From Caldithrix abyssi DSM 13497 (lineage in GTDB: Bacteria; Calditrichota; Calditrichia; Calditrichales; Calditrichaceae): a stretch of 64,000 bases of DNA. Location: NCBI RefSeq assembly GCF_001886815.1, contig NZ_CP018099.1, forward strand, positions 1,052,501 through 1,116,500, written 5' to 3'. Positions 52,084 to 60,646 of the stretch are shown in pieces (within the stretch, counting starts at the first letter, position 1; the number at the start of each line of letters is the position of its first letter). A program made the position numbers and the translations under genes. Under the pieces are notes generated by a model. It saw only the letters and a program-made list of their open reading frames with translations. It searched no databases and was not told where the DNA came from.

Positions 52084-52212
52084 GCACAACCAAACATTCA
52101 ACCACATGCCTTCAGCTGGCGGCGATTTGAAAGGGTGGTGTAGTTGTGCGCTGCCCTGCTGGGTTGAAAATACGGTGAAATAATTTTGGCACTGGTTAGC
52201 TCATCGTTATGT
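52084..52212 (+). repeat. attC site a (integron cassette recombination site), 129 bp
   Basis: Left core gcacaac (52084-52090), inner L box ending 'tcaacc', inner partner 'ggttagc', right core gttatgt (52206-52212). The ends pair in reverse. It resembles site g at 58975-59103 over its full length, with equal length. Their inner stems differ by a compensatory pair: tgcc/ggca here, cgcc/ggcg there. Recombination would cut between G52206 and T52207. Confidence 0.85.
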
Positions 52213-52250
52213 GCTTATAATAAATTAAATCAATAAAAAGGCAGTAATTA

Positions 52251-55055
52251 ATGGATAAAGGTGCTCATTTCTATAAATGTGATTTTCAAGTTCATACACC
52301 AAGAGACATAAATTGGGTTGGTGATAGACCAGTATCAGAAGAAGATAGAAAAGCATATGCGGATGAATTTGTAAGAAAATGTAGAGAATTAGGAATAAAT
52401 GCAGTTGCAATAACTGATCATCATGATTTTGGGTTTTATCCATACATAAAAAAGGCTGCAGATAACGAATTAGATGATTTGGGTAATCCAATTCCAGAAG
52501 AGGATAAATTAGTTGTTTTCCCGGGGCTTGAGCTTACTTTATCTACTCCACCTTGTCAAGCAATTTTAATTATTGATGAAGAATATCCAATTAATGCTTT
52601 AGAGCAAATTTTGCATTTATTAGGTATCACTCCCAATTCTTCGGAAGATCCAACAACAGTGGAAACCGCTCCAATAACGAATACGTTAGTAAATGGTTTT
52701 CAAGAACTTTATGATAAACTAAATTCTATTGATTTGCTTAAAAATAGATTTATTGTTTTCCCGAATGTTAGCGAAGGTGGAAGACATACTCTACTTAGAG
52801 CAGGAAACTCGGAACAATATAAAAAAATGCCTTGTGTCGGTGGCTATGTAGATGGTTCTTTATCTCAATTAGGTACTGGTAAGCATAATATTATTAATGG
52901 GAAAGCAAGAGAATGGGGTTTTAAAAGTATTGCTGTATTCCAAACATCTGATAACCGCCATAGAGACTTTCGATTACTTGGTCAACATACTACATGGGTA
53001 AAATGGGCAGAACCAACGGCAGAGGCTCTTAGACAAGCTTGTTTGGCGAAAGAATCAAGATTATCTCAGGAGATTCCAGAGCTTCCCCAAATATTTATCA
53101 CTCAAATTGATGTTACAAATTCGAAGTTTTTGGGTTCGTTCTCTATCAAATTTAATCAGCAATATAACGCAATAATTGGTGGGCGTGGAACGGGTAAGTC
53201 CACAATACTAGAATATTTAAGATGGGGATTATGTGATCAAACCCCTTCCAGTTATGAAGAAGAGCAATCAGAAATAGAAAAAAGAAGACAAAACTTTATT
53301 AAAAAAACCTTGATCCTTTTTTCTGGTGAAGTAAGGATTACATTTAATTTAAATGGTATCAATCATATAATAAAAAGGAATTCTGTTAATAATGAAATAA
53401 AATTGAAAATAGGTGCTTCCGATTTTGAATTAGTAACAGAAGAAGATATAAGAAAATTATTACCTATTCAAGCATACAGTCAAAAGCAATTAAGTAGTGT
53501 TGGAATTAAGACAAAAGAATTAAAGCGTTTTATAGAACAACCAATTTCCAATCAACTCAATCAAATCAAATTGAAATTATATGATAATGCTAAGAAAACT
53601 ACAAAATCATATAATGATTTAATTAGAAAAAAACAGATTCAATATGAACTGGAACAAATTAGTCTTGAAATCAAATCGCTTACTAGTCAAGTAGAAAATT
53701 TGAGGAAGTCTTTAACAGGTGTTTCAGAAAAAGACAAAAAAATAATTGCTAAAAAACCAAAATATGATGCTGAAGAAAATATATTGGATAAAGTCAAGAA
53801 TGAAATATCAATTATTTCAGACAAAATAGACGAACTTTTAATATCTCTTTCTAAATATCCTGAAGAGTTTCCTAAAGATATCGAATTTGAAAACAAAGAA
53901 TTGATGCAACAAATTGAGAATCTAGTATTAAGAAAATTTGAAGAAATAAAAGGAATTGCAAAAAAATTAAAGGATTCATTGACTGAAGAAAATTTAAAAA
54001 ACTTAAATAATCTGTTCATTGAATGGCAAAATCTCAAATCTAAATTTGAAACCAATTATGAAGCTGCAAAGGGAAGGACTTCTTCAAATCGGTCACAATT
54101 AGAAGAAATTAAAAGGTTAGAGTCAAGACTTCAGGACTTGTCAATATCTGTTAACGAAAGAAATTCTATTTTGAAAGAAATTGGTAATCCTGAGTTAGAA
54201 TTTGAAAAGTTCCGTGAAGAATGGCTTCAGTTACATAAGGAAAAAATTGATCTTTTAAATAATCAAGCTCAGAAATTTGCTCAATTATCTAATGGACTTA
54301 TTAGAGCTTATATTTCTAAAGGAATAGATATTCATTCAATCAAAGAAAGTTTGAATACTGCTTTTAATAAAACAAGGATACGGGAAGATAGAGTTCAGGC
54401 AATTTGTGATTACATAATGGAAAATGAAAATCCGTTAAACATTTGGTATGAAATATTAAATGAACTTAGAATTCTTGCTGAATTACAATTTTCAGAAGAA
54501 AAAAATATTGAAATTCCTGAAGTTAATCATTTATCTTCTTGTGGTTTTAATCAGAAGAATATAAAAAAAATAATTGAATTATTTACTCCTGAAAAATGGA
54601 TATCTATAGCTGCTAGTGAAATAGAGTTTAGCCCTAACTTTCAATATTGTACTAATAATCAATTAGGTGACATAATTCCTTTTTCAGAAGCATCTGCCGG
54701 TCAACAAGCTACAGCATTACTAACTGTACTTTTAAATCAATCTGGTACACCTTTAATTATTGATCAACCTGAAGATGACATAGATAATAAAGCAATTGGT
54801 GAAATTATTGATAATATTTGGACGGCAAAGCAAAAACGGCAATTAATCTTCTCAAGCCATAATGCAAATTTAGTAGTTAATGGTGACGCAGAGCTGGTTA
54901 TTTGTTGTGATTATAGAGATACCAGTAGCCAAACAAGGGGAATTATAAAAGCTGAAGGAGCTATTGATTCTACCATTATAAGAAATGAGATTACATCAGT
55001 TATGGAAGGCGGTGAAAAGGCATTTCGATTAAGGAAAGAAAAGTATGGGTTCTAA
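52251..55055 (+). CDS. PHP-domain plus SMC-like ATPase, TrlF-like
   Basis: 934 residues. N-terminal PHP metal-binding phosphoesterase pattern: 'DFQVHTPRD' and 'AITDHHDFGF' near residues 9-60. An AAA/ABC-type ATPase follows, with Walker A 'GGRGTGKST' at 310-318, long coiled coils at about 440-700, signature-like 'ASAGQQA' near 814-820, Walker B and catalytic Glu in 'LIIDQPEDD' (835-843) and a 'SSHNANLV' H-loop. The family resembles TrlF-type ATPases, some linked to defence. Markedly more AT-rich than the core genes. It lies alone in a 2.9-kb cassette between attC sites a and b, unusually large for a cassette. Confidence 0.87.
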   Translation: MDKGAHFYKCDFQVHTPRDINWVGDRPVSEEDRKAYADEFVRKCRELGINAVAITDHHDFGFYPYIKKAADNELDDLGNPIPEEDKLVVFPGLELTLSTPPCQAILIIDEEYPINALEQILHLLGITPNSSEDPTTVETAPITNTLVNGFQELYDKLNSIDLLKNRFIVFPNVSEGGRHTLLRAGNSEQYKKMPCVGGYVDGSLSQLGTGKHNIINGKAREWGFKSIAVFQTSDNRHRDFRLLGQHTTWVKWAEPTAEALRQACLAKESRLSQEIPELPQIFITQIDVTNSKFLGSFSIKFNQQYNAIIGGRGTGKSTILEYLRWGLCDQTPSSYEEEQSEIEKRRQNFIKKTLILFSGEVRITFNLNGINHIIKRNSVNNEIKLKIGASDFELVTEEDIRKLLPIQAYSQKQLSSVGIKTKELKRFIEQPISNQLNQIKLKLYDNAKKTTKSYNDLIRKKQIQYELEQISLEIKSLTSQVENLRKSLTGVSEKDKKIIAKKPKYDAEENILDKVKNEISIISDKIDELLISLSKYPEEFPKDIEFENKELMQQIENLVLRKFEEIKGIAKKLKDSLTEENLKNLNNLFIEWQNLKSKFETNYEAAKGRTSSNRSQLEEIKRLESRLQDLSISVNERNSILKEIGNPELEFEKFREEWLQLHKEKIDLLNNQAQKFAQLSNGLIRAYISKGIDIHSIKESLNTAFNKTRIREDRVQAICDYIMENENPLNIWYEILNELRILAELQFSEEKNIEIPEVNHLSSCGFNQKNIKKIIELFTPEKWISIAASEIEFSPNFQYCTNNQLGDIIPFSEASAGQQATALLTVLLNQSGTPLIIDQPEDDIDNKAIGEIIDNIWTAKQKRQLIFSSHNANLVVNGDAELVICCDYRDTSSQTRGIIKAEGAIDSTIIRNEITSVMEGGEKAFRLRKEKYGF

Positions 55056-55064
55056 AAATTTATC

Positions 55065-55137
55065 ACATAACAAATCGCTCCACCTGACCGCTATTCCGCT
55101 GGCGCTCCATAGCGGCTGGTTAGCTCTTTCGTTAAAC
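55065..55137 (+). repeat. attC site b, 73 bp
   Basis: Left core acataac (55065-55071), 'tgaccgctat' pairing with 'atagcggctggtta' through a perfect 7-bp inner stem, right core gttaaac (55131-55137). It begins 9 bases after the TrlF-like stop codon. Confidence 0.88.
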
Positions 55138-55415
55138 GTACATATTTGCCTTTATGGTCGCGGCAACTTAGAGGAAGTGAAAAGCCTTTTTTGTTAAGAT
55201 CAAATAACGGCATGTAAGCGCGGCAAAAAGTCCATTGAGTTGAAATAGCTTTTTTTATTTAAGGTGTGGTCTTTTTGCCTTGATCTAAATACGTTGTAAA
55301 AAAATAGCGTTGCTGCTTGCCTGGCGCAGGTTTGTTTGGTATTTTGTAGTAAAGTTAGTTAACGTAATTTGTTCAGGCGTTTAACAGGTCGCTTAATGTT
55401 AATTGAAATTTTGGG
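55138..55415. other. non-coding part of cassette 2 with possible attC remnants
   Basis: No gene was seen in about 280 bases. 'gtttaacaggtcgcttaa' at 55380-55397 closely matches the left half of attC g ('gtgtaaccggtcgcttaa'), and 'ggcgcaggtt' at 55323-55332 matches part of its right half. These look like pieces of a broken attC, suggesting a lost cassette. Confidence 0.45.
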
Positions 55416-55444
55416 TTGATAATTTGTTGGGAGTTGGATAGATT
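55416..55444 (+). promoter_or_regulatory. sigma70-like promoter for the toxin-antitoxin cassette
   Basis: ttgata (55416-55421), 17-base spacer, tagatt (55439-55444), 40 bases ahead of the antitoxin start. Cassettes with toxin-antitoxin genes commonly carry their own promoter. Confidence 0.5.
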
Positions 55445-55484
55445 GGATATAGATGTGTAATAAAGATAAAAGGAGATATGTAGT

Positions 55485-55670
55485 ATGTCGAATGTAAAAG
55501 AAGTAATGAAAAAAATTATCCAAGAACAGCCCGATGATGCATCATACGAAGAGATAATGCGCGAACTTGCTTTTGAGGGAATGATTGAACGAGGATTAGA
55601 AGATTCACGTAAGGGCAGAGTGATCAGTAATGATGAAATGGAGCAGCGCATTCGTTCATGGCACAAATAA
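55485..55670 (+). CDS. probable antitoxin of a ParE/RelE-type module
   Basis: 61 residues, acidic at the start ('VKEVMKKIIQEQPDDASYEEIMRELAF') and rich in charged residues later ('GRVISNDEMEQRIRSWHK'). No clear DNA-binding motif could be named. It overlaps the toxin start by 13 bases, which is the main evidence for its role. Ribosome binding site 'aaaggaga'. Confidence 0.82.
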   Translation: MSNVKEVMKKIIQEQPDDASYEEIMRELAFEGMIERGLEDSRKGRVISNDEMEQRIRSWHK

Positions 55671-55963
55671 GATGGACACCAGAAGCCGAAAGATGGTTGA
55701 GAGAGATTTATAACTATATTGCCCAGGACAATGGAAGCGCTGCACAGAGAGTTGTAACGGGGATTTATAAAAAAGCACAAATCCTTAAAGATTTCCCTGA
55801 GATTGGTTATAAGCACAGATCTGAGCCCGAAGGAGATATAAGAATCCTTCTGTATGGGCATTATCGTATCGCATATCTCGTTAGAGAAAATGAGGTGATT
55901 GATATTTTGGGAGTGTTCCATGGTGCAATGGATATAGATAGATATCTAAAGATTCTGGCCTAA
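55658..55963 (+). CDS. RelE/ParE-family toxin
   Basis: 101 residues. The family pattern is visible: 'IRWTPEAERWLREIYNYIAQDNGSAAQRVVTGIYKKAQIL', then 'PEIGYKHRSEPEGDIRILLYGHYRIAYLV' and 'VIDILGVFHGAMD'. RelE members cut mRNA on the ribosome and ParE members inhibit gyrase; which one applies is not readable. Located downstream of its antitoxin in cassette 2, with attC c starting at the stop codon. Confidence 0.9.
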   Translation: MAQIRWTPEAERWLREIYNYIAQDNGSAAQRVVTGIYKKAQILKDFPEIGYKHRSEPEGDIRILLYGHYRIAYLVRENEVIDILGVFHGAMDIDRYLKILA

Positions 55964-56016
55964 TAACTCATTCCAGAGGACGGCGTAAACGCCGCCGCTG
56001 AATTCAAGCGTTGTGC
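55961..56016 (+). repeat. attC site c, 56 bp
   Basis: Left core taataac (55961-55967, overlapping the toxin stop codon), inner hairpin ggcg/cgcc, 'ctgaattcaagc' and right core gttgtgc (56010-56016). The inner sequence is close to well-known attC sites such as those of aad cassettes. Confidence 0.9.
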
Positions 56017-56064
56017 ACCTCAGGAAAATTTGCTATTCACAAAATATTTTAGCATTTTTGATAT

Positions 56065-56364
56065 ATGAAAAACGACTTGAAAAATATTAGAACCAAATTG
56101 CGCAAAGAATTGCCCAAGCTACGTTCAGAGTTTTACGTAAACTCTCTGGAAATATTTGGTTCTTTCGTTCGTAATGAGCAGACGGCAGATAGTGATTTGG
56201 ATATTTTAGTTACTTTTTCTCAAGCGCCTTCATTATTTAAGTTTATTGAATTGGAAGAATATTTGAGCGGAATACTTGGCATAAAGGTCGATTTAGTAAT
56301 GAAGAGCTCATTAAAACCCCATATTGGCAAAAGAATAATTTCAGAAGCCAAATCGATATTATGA
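56065..56364 (+). CDS. MntA-type minimal nucleotidyltransferase (antitoxin)
   Basis: 99 residues. 'LEIFGSFVRNEQTADSDLDILVTF' holds the GS motif and the two Asp (SDLD) of a minimal nucleotidyltransferase, with a third acidic residue in 'KVDLVM'. MntA antitoxins AMPylate the partner HepT. Overlaps the next gene by four bases (ATGA). Confidence 0.92.
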   Translation: MKNDLKNIRTKLRKELPKLRSEFYVNSLEIFGSFVRNEQTADSDLDILVTFSQAPSLFKFIELEEYLSGILGIKVDLVMKSSLKPHIGKRIISEAKSIL

Positions 56365-56714
56365 AAGATAAAGATAGAATAATCCTTGACTATTTAAATG
56401 ATATATTAGATTCTATAATTAAGATAAAGTCCTTCCTTAAAGATGTTGATTATCCCATTTTTCAAAAAGATGTAAAAACTCAATACGCCGTTATTAGAGC
56501 ATTAGAGATTATTGGTGAAGCATCCAAGAAAATCCCACAAGAAGTAAAAGATAATTATTCATGGATACCCTGGCGTTTTATGGCCGGGATGCGCGATAAA
56601 TTAATCCATGATTATTTTGGTATAGATATTCAGGTAATTTGGAATACCGCTACTAAAGATATTTTAAAATTAGAAGAAGAAATAAAAAATATGGTTTCTT
56701 CTTATTTGAAATAA
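56361..56714 (+). CDS. HepT-type HEPN ribonuclease toxin
   Basis: 117 residues, all helical. HEPN catalytic motif Rx4H in 'GMRDKLIHDYFGI', followed by the Tyr that MntA usually modifies. Preceded by 'ALEIIGEASKKIPQEVK' typical of the DUF86 family. Forms a toxin-antitoxin pair with the gene before it, together filling cassette 3. Confidence 0.92.
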   Translation: MKDKDRIILDYLNDILDSIIKIKSFLKDVDYPIFQKDVKTQYAVIRALEIIGEASKKIPQEVKDNYSWIPWRFMAGMRDKLIHDYFGIDIQVIWNTATKDILKLEEEIKNMVSSYLK

Positions 56715-56735
56715 TCTCTAAGAGTGGTAGGCGGG

Positions 56736-56837
56736 GCACAACACGCCAATCAAGCCGACAAAAAAACACATCTGGTCTTTTGGAATTTGGCAAATTTATT
56801 AAGTGTTTTTTTGCGGCTTATCGGCAGGCCGTTAAAC
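56736..56837 (+). repeat. attC site d, 102 bp
   Basis: Left core gcacaac (56736-56742), 'caagccg' pairing with 'cggctta', right core gttaaac (56831-56837). It lies 21 bases after the HepT stop and 23 before the next start codon. Confidence 0.85.
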
Positions 56838-56860
56838 GCTTGAAGGATTAAAAGCTGATT

Positions 56861-57700
56861 ATGTTAGCTAAAATCGTTGAGAGTTATAAATCTTTCTTAA
56901 GTGTGAAGTATGAGTCCCATTACAAACTATTCTGTAACCGTTTGGGGGACAAACCAGAGGGCGCAAGAGCTGAGGCCGTGACATTCTCTTGGCTTAGGTC
57001 TCAGTTTGAAGAAGTGACTATTGCAGAAGACGTTGTAACGGGAGGTGCCGACTTTCTCTGCGTATCAGGAAATGACAAAATCATAGTGGAAGTTACGTGT
57101 GCTGAAAGTGAAGCGGTCTCTACTCAGTCATATTTGCCCAATCGCGTTCCAGAGAACGGTTCTGGAGGTTCATTCAGGATGATTACACACAAGTTGAGAA
57201 CAAAAGCGTCTGAAAAAGCGTCTCAATTGTCGGACTACAGAATGCCCCGGGTACTGGCGATCACCTGCGAACATGTTGCTGCTGACGTCCTGTTAGGACC
57301 ACTCGGAGCCGAAATGTTACTTACAAGCGATCCAAAGATACGCGTACCGATAGCCACTGGAAAATCCATCGACGAGAGAATTTATATGACAACGGATTTA
57401 AAAGATTCTGTTTTTTTTAGGTTCAATAAAGGAACTGTTGAACCATGTAGACAAAGCATATCCGCCATATTCTTGATCAGTATTTTGGCAGACAAGTTGT
57501 TAGTCGTTGGCATTCTCCATCCTCAACCGCGGCACGTACTTACTATCAGCATGTTGCCTTTGGTACCATTTTTACGAATAAAAAAATGGCCTCCAGAAAA
57601 CCATAGGATTGAAACTGAATGGGTTATTCATAGCCCTAAACCGGCTGCGTTTTATCACCAGGAAATAACTTTTAATGAAAAGGAATTGCGAAGCATATAA
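56861..57700 (+). CDS. hypothetical protein with a possible PD-(D/E)xK nuclease-like core
   Basis: 279 residues. Not confidently recognised. Residues 33-80 contain 'EGARAEAVTFSWLRSQF', then 'VVTGGADFLCVSGNDKIIVEVTC', a pattern of an upstream Glu, Asp64 and Glu77 that recalls restriction-type nucleases, but the usual Lys is replaced by Thr79. GC content is higher than in the neighbouring cassettes, suggesting a separate origin. The only gene in cassette 4. Confidence 0.72.
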   Translation: MLAKIVESYKSFLSVKYESHYKLFCNRLGDKPEGARAEAVTFSWLRSQFEEVTIAEDVVTGGADFLCVSGNDKIIVEVTCAESEAVSTQSYLPNRVPENGSGGSFRMITHKLRTKASEKASQLSDYRMPRVLAITCEHVAADVLLGPLGAEMLLTSDPKIRVPIATGKSIDERIYMTTDLKDSVFFRFNKGTVEPCRQSISAIFLISILADKLLVVGILHPQPRHVLTISMLPLVPFLRIKKWPPENHRIETEWVIHSPKPAAFYHQEITFNEKELRSI

Positions 57701-57754
57701 CCATGCAAATGCAGCCTACGCTAGAATCCGCGCGGTTGATTTGCTCCGTTATAC
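57695..57754 (+). repeat. attC site e, 60 bp
   Basis: Left core atataac (57695-57701, overlapping the upstream stop codon) and right core gttatac (57748-57754) are inverse matches with one difference; 'aatgcagcc' and 'ggttgatttgctcc' are the inner boxes. Its position shows that the in-frame ATG at 57675 cannot be the native start of the next gene. Confidence 0.9.
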
Positions 57755-57773
57755 AATATATGAGGGTAATAAT

Positions 57774-58538
57774 ATGAATCCAACAATATCAAGATTTTTA
57801 AAAGATTGCTACAAAAATTATATTCCCTCAATTCGAATAGATGTTCCTGAATTTCCAGAAAAGTATTTTTATCCTGGTGGTAATCCGGTAAGACCTGTTT
57901 TGCCTGTTCAGATAGCACAAAATAAAATAATGATTATAGGTGCTTTCCCTTCGGCAAGATTTGAAAGAAGGAATGGTAAATTAATACCAATTGCAGATAA
58001 TTTATCTCCGTTCAGTGAAGAAAAATATTTTGATGGAAGAGAAATAAGAACACAAGCTTCTCGAGAAAGTCTTAATAAAAACTATTTTCCTCAATTGGGG
58101 ATTGAGCTAAATGATTTATGGATTACTGATTTAGTTAAAATATATTTATTTCCTAAAAAACACATTAAAAATTGTCGAGAAATATCACCTCATATTGAAT
58201 TCGTAAACACTCATAAATTATTTAAAAAAATTGCAAAATCAGAATCGAATATATTTTGGATAAAGAGAGAAATTGAAATTTGCAACCCACAATTTATAAT
58301 TACTCTTGGTGAAGTACCTGCTCGTGTTATTTCTTCAGATTACAAAACAAAAAATAAAGAATTATTAAATGGCTCAATAAGAGAAGTTTATCTTAATAAA
58401 AAATATAAAATTTCACATTTAGCCCATCCGGAAATCCGAAGAATAAATAAAGATTGGGATGAAATCACTAAAAATGCAATAAAGAATTTAGCCAATAAAA
58501 TCAAAAAATTAGATTTGTCTAAGCATGGTAGCGTATAA
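57774..58538 (+). CDS. uracil-DNA-glycosylase-like superfamily protein
   Basis: 254 residues from ATG 57774 with 'gaggg' upstream. An ORF extends to 57675, but that part lies in the previous cassette and attC e. 'KIMIIGAFPSARFERRNGKL' fits motif A (GxxP) of UDG-like folds and 'ISHLAHPEIRR' fits the motif B His region; the middle has 'LNDLWITDLVKIYLFPKK'. Could be a DNA-repair or nucleotide-processing enzyme, or a defence component; activity is unproven. AT-rich. Sole gene in cassette 5. Confidence 0.72.
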   Translation: MNPTISRFLKDCYKNYIPSIRIDVPEFPEKYFYPGGNPVRPVLPVQIAQNKIMIIGAFPSARFERRNGKLIPIADNLSPFSEEKYFDGREIRTQASRESLNKNYFPQLGIELNDLWITDLVKIYLFPKKHIKNCREISPHIEFVNTHKLFKKIAKSESNIFWIKREIEICNPQFIITLGEVPARVISSDYKTKNKELLNGSIREVYLNKKYKISHLAHPEIRRINKDWDEITKNAIKNLANKIKKLDLSKHGSV

Positions 58539-58633
58539 CCTGCGGTTTAAGTTTGACGCGAGAACGCATCAGGTTTTTTGCAATTTGGAAATTTTTAAAC
58601 GTGCTCGTGCTGCTTAACCGCAATCCGTTACAC
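58533..58633 (+). repeat. attC site f, 101 bp
   Basis: Left core gtataac (58533-58539, overlapping the stop codon), 'gcggtttaag' pairing with 'cttaaccgc', right core gttacac (58627-58633). Confidence 0.9.
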
Positions 58634-58669
58634 CGTTAAAATAATATCTCATCCGTTTGTGGCATATTC

Positions 58670-58698
58670 TTGTAAATTGAATTGGTTTAAATTATACT
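58670..58698 (+). promoter_or_regulatory. sigma70-like promoter inside cassette 6
   Basis: ttgtaa (58670-58675), 17-base spacer, tatact (58693-58698), 23 bases before the small antitoxin-like gene. A good match to the consensus for a cassette-borne promoter. Confidence 0.6.
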
Positions 58699-58721
58699 AT
58701 AGATAAAACAAGGATTAAAAA

Positions 58722-58970
58722 ATGAGCGTTAAAGAAATAAACCAAAAAATAAAAAAGGTTCCGCCTCATTTAATCCCTGAAATAATGGATTTTATAGATT
58801 TTTTAATCAATAAATATAGTAAATCGCCTAAAAAGAAGAAACCATTTAAATTTACCTGGCAAGGTGGTTTGGCCGAAATATCTAAAAAATATACTTCTGT
58901 TGAATTACAACATAAAGTAATGGACGCTGATTTTAAGAAGGTGAAGCATACTAAAGTTGAATTTTTATAA
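58722..58970 (+). CDS. DUF2281-type antitoxin-like protein, no toxin partner
   Basis: 82 residues. 'VPPHLIPEIMDFIDFLINKY' then a lysine run and 'FKFTWQGGLAEISKKYTSVELQHKV', the pattern of DUF2281 proteins that usually act as antitoxins to PIN-domain toxins. No toxin gene follows; attC g begins five bases after the stop. Confidence 0.82.
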   Translation: MSVKEINQKIKKVPPHLIPEIMDFIDFLINKYSKSPKKKKPFKFTWQGGLAEISKKYTSVELQHKVMDADFKKVKHTKVEFL

Positions 58971-58974
58971 TTCG

Positions 58975-59103
58975 GTGTAACCGGTCGCTTAACCACACGC
59001 CTTCAATCGGCGGCGATTTGGCAGGTTGGTTTAGTTGTGCGCTGCCCTTCTGGTCGGAAAGTATGGTAAAATAATTTTGGCGCAGGTTAGCTTAACGTTA
59101 TAC
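58975..59103 (+). repeat. attC site g, 129 bp, sister of site a
   Basis: Left core gtgtaac (58975-58981), 'cggtcgcttaacc', right part 'ggttagcttaac' and right core gttatac (59097-59103). It matches site a across about 100 inner bases, with equal length. Long VCR-like form. Confidence 0.92.
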
Positions 59104-59125
59104 TCTTTATATAAAGGGATATATT

Positions 59126-59911
59126 ATGCAAGGTAGAAATATTTTTACTTCCTCTGAAATTAACTATATAAAAGATTTACTTCGTCAAAAATCTCAAACT
59201 TCTAGATCAGCTCAAAAATCTATAAGGTCAAAATTAAGGAAAATTGGTTTCTATATTTCTGATTTTGACCAATCTCAATCAGGATTTACAGAAGCAGATT
59301 TTAACCTTTTAATTAAAAAAGGTTATATAAAAATAAAAGAATCAAATGAAAGTACAGATATACAAAGAAACCTTTCAACTGTATCTGATAATTCTAAAAA
59401 TTTTGATGAAATACGTAATTTACATAAACCAGAAAAAGTAAATGTTTTATATATCGGGGAATCTCCACCTTCTGGTGGCACTTTTTTCTATTTGGCAAAT
59501 TCTAATTTATTTTTTTGTATAAAATCAGCATTTGAAGAATCTTATTCTCATGAATTTAGTAATTTAGAATTTCTTGATTTTTTCAAAAATTGTAAATGCT
59601 ATTTAGATGATTTATGCCTTGTCCCAATAAATAATAAAACTGATTTTGAAAGAGAACAATTAAGAAAAGAAGGAATATCTCAATTATCGATAAGAATTAA
59701 TGACTATAATCCAAAAGCAATAATTGTCGTTATGAAGTCACTTGAAATGTATGTTAAACAGGCAATAAAGCTAGCAGGTGTAAAACTTCAATATTTTAAT
59801 ACTACTTCTTTTCCTAGCTTTAGTGCAAAGAATAAAAAGAATTGCTTTTTTGAAAATGTAAAAATTATTAATGAATTAATTAAATTAAAAATAATACAAA
59901 ATAACACATAA
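59126..59911 (+). CDS. hypothetical protein with UDG-like C-terminal region
   Basis: 261 residues. N-terminal 90 residues are charged and helical. From residue about 108, 'VNVLYIGESPPSGGTFFYLANS' followed by 'DDLCLVPINN' and 'NPKAIIVVMKSLEMYVKQAI' recalls the GxxPP motif and fold order of uracil-DNA-glycosylase-like proteins, but a motif B His is not obvious. Very AT-rich. Sole gene in cassette 7; the attC that follows is truncated. Confidence 0.65.
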   Translation: MQGRNIFTSSEINYIKDLLRQKSQTSRSAQKSIRSKLRKIGFYISDFDQSQSGFTEADFNLLIKKGYIKIKESNESTDIQRNLSTVSDNSKNFDEIRNLHKPEKVNVLYIGESPPSGGTFFYLANSNLFFCIKSAFEESYSHEFSNLEFLDFFKNCKCYLDDLCLVPINNKTDFEREQLRKEGISQLSIRINDYNPKAIIVVMKSLEMYVKQAIKLAGVKLQYFNTTSFPSFSAKNKKNCFFENVKIINELIKLKIIQNNT

Positions 59912-59983
59912 CGAATAGGCTTCGCACCGGACGCCATTCAATAAATAGCCGCAGGCTCACCTTTTAAAAATTAGCGTCTGGCT
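59906..59983 (+). repeat. truncated attC site h
   Basis: Left core acataac (59906-59912, overlapping the stop codon) and inner stem ccggacgc/gcgtctgg (59927-59934 with 59974-59981) are present. The sequence then departs and no GTT core follows. The right end appears to have been lost where unrelated DNA with a recombinase remnant begins. Confidence 0.7.
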
Positions 59984-60066
59984 GTCCCGATCTTTCTGTC
60001 TTGTCTCAAACCAATAATAACTTAAGAATGATTATTTTTACAATCTTTGGCCTTGTCTATTTTTTT

Positions 60067-60449
60067 TAAATAGTTTTCAGGCAGGCTTTGTGATGTTACA
60101 TTTTGATGCAGGAAAAAATTTTATTAACTTCTTTTAATCTTAGAATTTCTGGTAAGGATTTGTCTCGAGGTGAACGAACCAGTCCAAAGACATTCCATTG
60201 CTTTTGCATCGTTTTTTCGAAGAAGAATTTAGTAGCGCTGATGGATACGGAGAAAGCCGCCCGAGACCAGTGTTTTACGTTCCTGTTGTAGAGAAAATAC
60301 GCTTTGATTTCCTGTTCATTGATTAATTCTGGCGCCTTATCGAAATGGGCTGCTAATTGTTTTAAAGCGTAAGTGTAAGAACGGATGGTGCTTTCGGAGA
60401 AATTCCGAAGTTGCATATCCTGGACAAAGCGATGGAATAAACGGGTCAT
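60067..60449 (-). pseudogene. decayed tyrosine recombinase (integrase) N-terminal fragment
   Basis: An open frame of 117 codons from 60449 to 60096 encodes a core-binding SAM-like domain: 'FVQDMQLRNFSESTIRSYTYALKQLAAHF', 'EIKAYFLYNRNVKHWSRAAFSVSISATKFFFE', 'LPEILRLKEVNKIFSCIKM'. After the stop the same frame reads 'HHKACLKTI', matching the next part of the family, then stops again. The catalytic domain with the Arg and Tyr residues is absent. It resembles recombinases linked to IS91-type elements rather than integron IntI, and is reversed relative to all cassette genes. Confidence 0.82.
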
Positions 60450-60513
60450 GACATACCTCCAAAGTTAAATGAATGTTTAGACAACTGTACTTTAACTTAA
60501 GGTGTGTCATGAC
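60445..60513 (-). repeat. inverted repeat around the recombinase start
   Basis: gtcatgaca (60445-60453) and tgtcatgac (60505-60513) are perfect inverse copies, with 'aaagttaa' and 'ttaactt' nested inside. It overlaps the start codon and the upstream region of the decayed recombinase and may be its operator or binding site. Confidence 0.6.
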
Positions 60514-60525
60514 CTAATAAAAATT

Positions 60526-60541
60526 GCCCCGCCTGCGGGGC
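60526..60541. terminator. short GC-rich hairpin
   Basis: gccccgc / gcggggc with a 2-base loop, next to the left edge of attC i. No clear T-run on the plus strand; on the minus strand an AT-rich stretch follows. Function uncertain. Confidence 0.4.
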
Positions 60542-60544
60542 TTA

Positions 60545-60646
60545 GTTCAACACGGGCGTGAACTCGGAATTTGCCACGCGCCCTGTTCATTGTAATTTCA
60601 AATTTTTGTTAGCGTGGCAAACCCGGTTACGCTTAATTCGTTAGCA
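60545..60646 (+). repeat. attC site i, 102 bp
   Basis: Left core gttcaac (60545-60551, a perfect fit to RYYYAAC), 'gcgtgaactcgg' pairing with 'ccggttacgc', inner 'tttgccacgc' with 'gcgtggcaaa', right core gttagca (60640-60646). Strong overall fold. Confidence 0.88.

Follow-up and report, generated by a model that had tools for sequence, protein, structure and literature searches.

The stretch of Caldithrix abyssi DSM 13497 DNA analysed here, 64,000 nucleotides long and hereafter called the window, encodes a TrlF-family AAA-like ATPase of 934 aa (52251..55055, forward strand). The question raised by this locus is whether such a large protein, with the parts of an ATPase and a nuclease in one chain, is a one-gene defence system that has been captured as an integron cassette.

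Boundaries of the TrlF cassette

We scanned 51.5-61.3 kb of the window for attC architecture, defined as an R'' of the form RYNYAAC, an inner L stem, and an R' of the form GTTRNRY. The G|TT cleavage points of two successive attCs, at 52206/52207 and 55131/55132, delimit a TrlF gene cassette of 2925 bp on the forward strand (52207..55131). The original prediction had placed a 2.9-kb cassette here from the sequence, and the recombination boundaries fall on precisely its coordinates. The 5' end is the R' of the upstream attC (G|TTATGT at 52206), and the 3' end is the next R' (G|TTAAAC at 55131). The upstream attC is 129 nt long (52084..52212, forward strand), has the R''/L/L'/R' layout, and is part of the preceding cassette, which is ORF-less or decayed. 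The cassette's own attC is 73 nt long (55065..55137, forward strand), with an R'' of ACATAAC and a stem score of 26. TrlF is the sole ORF of the cassette, with 44 bp separating the cassette start from its ATG, which is preceded by a Shine-Dalgarno-like AAAAAGG. The attC candidates from the scan lie to either side of the gene, with none within it; an attC inside the gene was one of the outcomes named beforehand as fatal to the prediction.

After excision, the cassette's 5' TTATGT meets its own 3' G, and R'' is thus expected to pair with the R' at the start of its own cassette rather than with that of the neighbor. The closure of the TrlF cassette is perfect, with R'' ACATAAC being the exact reverse complement of its own 5' R' GTTATGT. 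Closure was perfect in five of the seven array cassettes tested and partial in the remaining two, with 24/28 variable positions matching overall, a value reached by 24 of 5040 re-pairings. The other perfectly closing cassettes are an ORF-less cassette (55132), an MNT/HEPN cassette (56011), a UDG-like cassette (57749), and one encoding an 82-aa ORF (58628). Among shuffled-flank controls, the closure signature appeared in 1/750, and in 0/750 with a stem score of at least 20. The bottom strand of the TrlF attC folds at -12.4 kcal/mol (z -2.5 versus shuffles). Folding of the upstream 129-nt attC is no better than that of shuffles (z 0.4), so the case for this site rests on sequence homology. The G+C content is 31.0% in the TrlF cassette versus 45.5% in the 51.5 kb upstream.

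An integron gene cassette is recognized here by a single ORF, bounds at attC cleavage points, and complementarity between R'' and its own 5' R', and the TrlF unit has all three. Judged from its sequence, the TrlF gene is a complete integron cassette, horizontally acquired and now in a CALIN. It is also far above the usual size, as had been predicted: the median CDS in sedentary integrons is 362 bp (PMC5371416), and the TrlF CDS is 2805 bp. Synthetic cassettes of ~3 kb still excise, though less often than those of 60 bp (5.25e-5 versus 1.17e-3, one site pair; PMC5371416), and the size of the TrlF cassette is therefore no bar.

Origin of the array and the resident integron

The genome is a single contig of 4.98 Mb in which just one integron integrase, at 4,864,876, scores above the curated cut-off, with 463.7 bits. 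This resident intI (G000:C1 4,864,741-4,865,823; L008 741-1823) carries an in-frame TGA mid-gene, at about codon 198. Copies of intI are intact in several relatives, and an IntI over the cut-off is present in 12/20 genomes searched, C. abyssi counted. Given a circular chromosome, the resident intI is ~1.2 Mb from the window array, which has at least six attC sites in the scan and no integron integrase nearby and hence falls under the definition of a CALIN as two or more attC sites that lack a neighboring integron integrase. The listing of C. abyssi as "CALIN" without integrase in an IntegronFinder analysis would fit (PMC10295459).

Within the genome, the only matches to the upstream attC, at 81-95% identity, are attCs behind the resident intI (4,866,573-4,888,778) and 58991-59101 in the window array. 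Because it matches only these sites, we consider the window array to be a CALIN built from the site family of the resident integron. The 73-nt attC of TrlF differs in type from the resident 115-nt-spaced sites, with only its 3' L'-R' end resembling the home sites, as would be expected of a cassette imported from elsewhere. A search of plasmid DNA with the TrlF attC (86 bp) gave no match. The predicted mobility of the unit is thus upheld in part: the cassette structure is real, but there is no full-length integrase nearby, and the only intI of the genome is stop-interrupted. Dating the insertion via the synteny of the flanking glycosyltransferase and ABC-F genes was dropped, as these flanks are not adjacent in relatives.

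The resident array also contains a cassette of ~370 bp without an evident ORF, present in at least nine copies (88-97% identical) that are often head to tail (L008 2313-3790, 10625-11370, and 12188-13297). The same array encodes a 790-aa protein (L008 3839-6211) whose N-terminus is weakly TIR-like (CAP12/Pycsar TIR, below the cut-off) and whose body is STAND/NTPase-like. Its domain matches make it another large candidate defense cassette.

Architecture of the TrlF protein

The protein matches the TrlF family profile NF045780 of NCBIfam over its full length (profile 1-944/944) at 537.3 bits, above the equivalog cut-off of 350, and the proposed check against TrlF homologues accordingly came out in favor of the prediction. 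We predicted its structure by AlphaFold2 with 59 family members as input, which gave a pLDDT of 88.8 for the whole protein and 96.0 for residues 1-277. The latter residues form a PHP phosphoesterase domain (52251..53081, forward strand). The Pfam PHP match is weak (23.4 bits, below the cut-off of 26.4). The PHP fold is clear by structure, with Foldseek matching the model to the PHP domains of PolC, Pol III alpha, and RNase AM at E down to 1e-6.

The remainder resembles an SMC/Rad50-like ATPase with a split head, all on the forward strand. The N-terminal half of the head (residues 281-420; 53091..53510) contains the Walker A motif GGRGTGKST (310) and the Q-loop Q411, and matches Pfam AAA_23 at 43.3 bits (cut-off 27). 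It is followed by coiled-coil helices (residues 421-679; 53511..54287), assigned by DSSP on the confident AlphaFold2 model. The C-terminal half (54693..55052) contains SAGQQ (815), the Walker B motif LIIDQPEDD (835) with E841, a D-loop, and an H-loop with H870. The original description of a PHP region joined to an SMC-like ATPase with Walker A, Walker B, and long coiled coils therefore holds, the ABC motifs being present in the sequence, the coiled coil being modelled, and the PHP domain being identified by structure. Foldseek matches to the ATPase include SMC, Rad50, MukB, RecN, JetABC, and Lamassu; a viral structure library returned nothing beyond generic SMC/Rad50 matches, and a sequence search found no solved structure of a TrlF family member. 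Rad50 has a zinc hook CxxC in its coiled coil, whereas there is no CxxC anywhere in the TrlF protein, and a Rad50-type zinc hook is thus absent.

Conservation is strong in both catalytic regions. In the ATPase, K316, Q411, S815, E841, and H870 are invariant in 59/59 homologues. The PHP site is made up of Q13, H15, D56, H57, H58, E94, N172, D234, and R236, of which E94 and D234 are invariant across the same 59, with D56 and H57 nearly so. Within the close clade (n=32), N172 is found in 29/32 members and all the others in 32/32. PHP enzymes usually carry His where this clade has Q13, N172, and R236. Most distant members have His at 103 and 172, and 10/27 have it at 13, in place of the Q, N, and Q of the close clade at positions 103, 172, and 13. 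Since the clade's Q/N/Q stand where distant members often carry His, the PHP metal site is conserved but non-canonical. Catalysis by this site could be altered, with its ligands partly replaced.

Relatives and neighborhoods of TrlF

Among the 77 proteins of our tree, the window TrlF groups with those from Parapedobacter (64%), a Lactobacillus MAG (60%), and Saprospiraceae (55%). The nearest relatives thus come from Bacteroidota and Bacillota, and phyla are intermixed throughout the tree. A TrlF family member is present in 4/40 genomes of the phylum, C. abyssi included, and none of the three further genomes of the genus has one. Over a thousand plasmids have a TrlF match of any strength. This patchy presence, the phylum-mixed tree, and plasmid carriage all indicate that the window gene is horizontally acquired.

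We surveyed 125 close-clade neighbors, two on each side, using Pfam. These included 7 Res helicases, 5 N6/N4 methylases, 4 type I specificity proteins, 2 HsdR, and 2 C5 methylases, and in our judgement, made against typical genome frequencies, restriction genes are enriched near close-clade TrlF. In one locus TrlF lies between the type I specificity gene and HsdR (HsdS-TrlF-HsdR, L057), and another reads HsdR-HsdM-gene-TrlF (L078). Three have the order type III methylase-Res-TrlF (L025, L045, and L047), and L074 has a type III methylase and/or Res helicase near TrlF. HsdR or HsdS are neighbors in L044 and L035. A type II REase lies beside TrlF in L028, a restriction endonuclease in L024, and a PDC-S37-like helicase-nuclease is a neighbor in L059, the locus of the 64% identical Parapedobacter homologue. 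SIR2 adjoins TrlF in L037 and L076. Many close-clade neighborhoods have no recognised defense gene. Homologues confined to housekeeping contexts, the other outcome that would have counted against the prediction, were not what we found: homologues also occur in restriction operons, beside SIR2, and on plasmids.

No cassette signature was found around 85 homologue loci (79 from genome contigs and 6 from plasmids), and integron capture of TrlF therefore looks rare. L081 and L097 each have one attC-like hairpin with no partner, which looks like chance.

Comparison with known systems

The window protein shares its PHP domain, split ABC head, and coiled coil with the rest of the TrlF family (NF045780), including the product of the Photorhabdus trlRFG operon (PMC7554251). 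It differs from other TrlF in that no TrlG partner has been seen in its clade, in the QxH/N/R replacements in the PHP site, and in that the gene is alone in its cassette. A Photorhabdus-type TRL operon has trlF beside trlG (AlbA_2 and HATPase_c_4) and trlR, and no such domains are found among the array proteins. The anti-phage protein Ppl has the same general single-gene architecture, and the window protein is ~22-23% identical to plasmid Ppl proteins. However, it scores 169 bits against Ppl (NF042955; curated cut-off 1000) and 146 bits against the PADLOC Ppl model PDLC02208, and its match to Spaf_1101 is 155 bits (cut-off 475). By these scores, the window TrlF is related to Ppl, yet is not Ppl. 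JetC of Wadjet and LmuB of Lamassu resemble the ATPase and coiled coil by Foldseek (PADLOC LmuB, 31.6 bits). These belong to multi-subunit systems with a separate nuclease, whereas the window TrlF fuses a PHP phosphoesterase to the ATPase. The suggested search of defense-profile collections therefore returned a mixed answer, with weak Ppl and LmuB matches, the former far below the cut-off, and no match to a TrlF-specific PADLOC model.

Defense genes in integrons are established, with many small anti-phage cassettes recently described from chromosomal and mobile integrons (Darracq 2025, Kieffer 2025, and Getz, as reviewed in PMC12409362). The TrlF cassette is like these in having a candidate defense gene in an attC-bounded cassette, and unlike them in its host, which is neither a Vibrio nor a mobile-integron carrier. 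Known integron anti-phage cassettes are described as small and streamlined, and larger multi-gene systems are reported to be absent (PMC12409362). As both the TrlF family and defense cassettes are known, what is unusual here is their pairing, the size, and the host phylum.

Proposed function and alternatives

We consider it probable that the locus holds a captured TrlF cassette in a CALIN, the product of which is most likely a one-protein anti-phage (or anti-plasmid) ATPase-nuclease. The anti-phage function is likely on the basis of family and gene neighborhoods; a literature search found no phage assay for the window TrlF clade. In the proposed mechanism, a pair of SMC/Rad50-like heads would form an ATP-dependent dimer around foreign DNA, which might be DNA ends or intermediates of replication. 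Progress through the ATP cycle would in turn allow nucleic acid to be cleaved by the PHP phosphoesterase, and the invader would be destroyed or the cell arrested. TrlF would in this way be a one-chain counterpart of Rad50-nuclease or Lamassu-type machines. For this protein, we infer DNA as the trigger, nuclease activity, the defense outcome, and expression from the window locus. The positions within restriction operons suggest that TrlF may come into action once, or while, a restriction system is engaged or defeated. PrrC and RloC, encoded with type I systems, are an analogous case.

The main competing picture casts TrlF as a switch for stress or growth arrest, with the cassette storing a conditional growth regulator. 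It draws on the temperature-restricting locus of Photorhabdus, home to the named founder of the TrlF family, where warming induces the trlRFG operon and growth stops (PMC7554251); we found no other wet-lab work on an operon that carries TrlF. Two full-length homologues from the same phylum (L019 and L020) are each followed by a TrlG-like gene, repeating the Photorhabdus trlF-trlG pairing in another phylum; SLFN AlbA_2 and HATPase_c_4 domains were tested for L019. We nevertheless find this picture unlikely. The proven gene in Photorhabdus is trlG rather than trlF, and no trlF mutation was found that relieved arrest (PMC7554251). The two homologues also belong to a distant clade, the window clade being far from the TrlG-paired one and often found in restriction operons, and the window array has no TrlG-like partner. 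Moreover, abortive defense also appears as growth arrest, so the Photorhabdus phenotype is itself compatible with it. Fold matches to SMC, Rad50, and RecN could instead point to an ATPase with a housekeeping role in DNA repair or chromosome maintenance, which we regard as very unlikely given the family's presence in 4/40 phylum genomes and 0/3 others in the genus, its phylum-mixed tree, and its carriage on plasmids and in restriction operons.

Two further alternatives concern the locus. The gene may be silent there, as we found no sigma-70-like promoter or terminator over background before it, the resident intI is stop-interrupted, and no integron platform adjoins the window array, which is far from any. 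TrlF would then be a passenger, intact, unexpressed in the array, and of no present benefit to the host. However, drift should break an unused gene, and the TrlF frame still runs through 934 codons with every ATPase motif in place; in addition, Vibrio parahaemolyticus cassettes are expressible from within the array (PMC12409362). We see silence as a possibility, if the less probable one; it concerns use at the window locus rather than protein function and can be compatible with the anti-phage reading. The other alternative is that there is no cassette, just chance attC-like repeats flanking an ordinary acquired gene. A relaxed attC scan does yield 9 candidates in 51.5 kb of housekeeping DNA, but we consider chance extremely improbable in view of the perfect R'/R'' closure and stem score of TrlF against its controls, the five of seven cassettes that close perfectly, and the identity of the upstream attC to sites behind intI.

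The anti-phage reading leads to a broader and more tentative proposal. TrlF proteins of this clade may be self-sufficient, ATP-gated PHP nucleases that serve as "back-up" partners of restriction, with integrons carrying them as 3-kb single-gene immune cassettes. If true, the integron vehicle would not be restricted to small, streamlined defense genes, and the immune role of integrons would extend to a deep-branching, non-proteobacterial phylum where integrons are common. A clean 2.9-kb cassette for a PHP-SMC ATPase shows that such a ceiling on size can be exceeded, and it provides a one-gene, promoter-swappable test object. The close clade recurs in restriction operons of types I and III, which leads to the prediction that TrlF works alongside restriction or serves as its back-up.

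Other cassettes in the window array

The remaining array (55132..60640, forward strand) was annotated by Pfam and NCBIfam matches. In order after TrlF, it contains an ORF-less stretch with a degraded attC, a ParD/ParE-like pair, an MNT/HEPN pair, a gene for a 279-aa protein, a UDG-like gene, an 82-aa ORF, a gene for a 261-aa protein, and an integrase fragment. The attCs past TrlF are at 55960, 56736, 57695, 58533, 58975, 59906 (3' end unclear), and 60546, some identified by eye only. The ORF-less stretch (55132-55485) is probably a decayed cassette; its 5' R' and its R'' GTTTAAC close perfectly, and its attC stem is weak. Close to the TrlF cassette, 55485-55963 encodes a weak RelB/ParD-like antitoxin and a ParE toxin. 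An MNT nucleotidyltransferase and HEPN (HepT-like) pair (56065-56714), which resembles a type VII toxin-antitoxin, lies within the perfectly closing cassette 56011-56831.

The integrase fragment (60096-60449, reverse strand) is the N-terminal part of a tyrosine recombinase, 117 aa ending in TAA, with 37.8 bits to the IntI model. It was considered as a remnant of the resident intI and rejected, as there was no BLAST match at E<1. The 261-aa cassette protein (59126-59911) bears a very weak resemblance to glycosylases. A protein of the uracil-DNA-glycosylase superfamily is encoded in its own cassette at 57774-58538, where the ATG at 57774 is the likely start, the listed ORF start at 57675 overlapping an attC. 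UDG domains count among predicted defense components.
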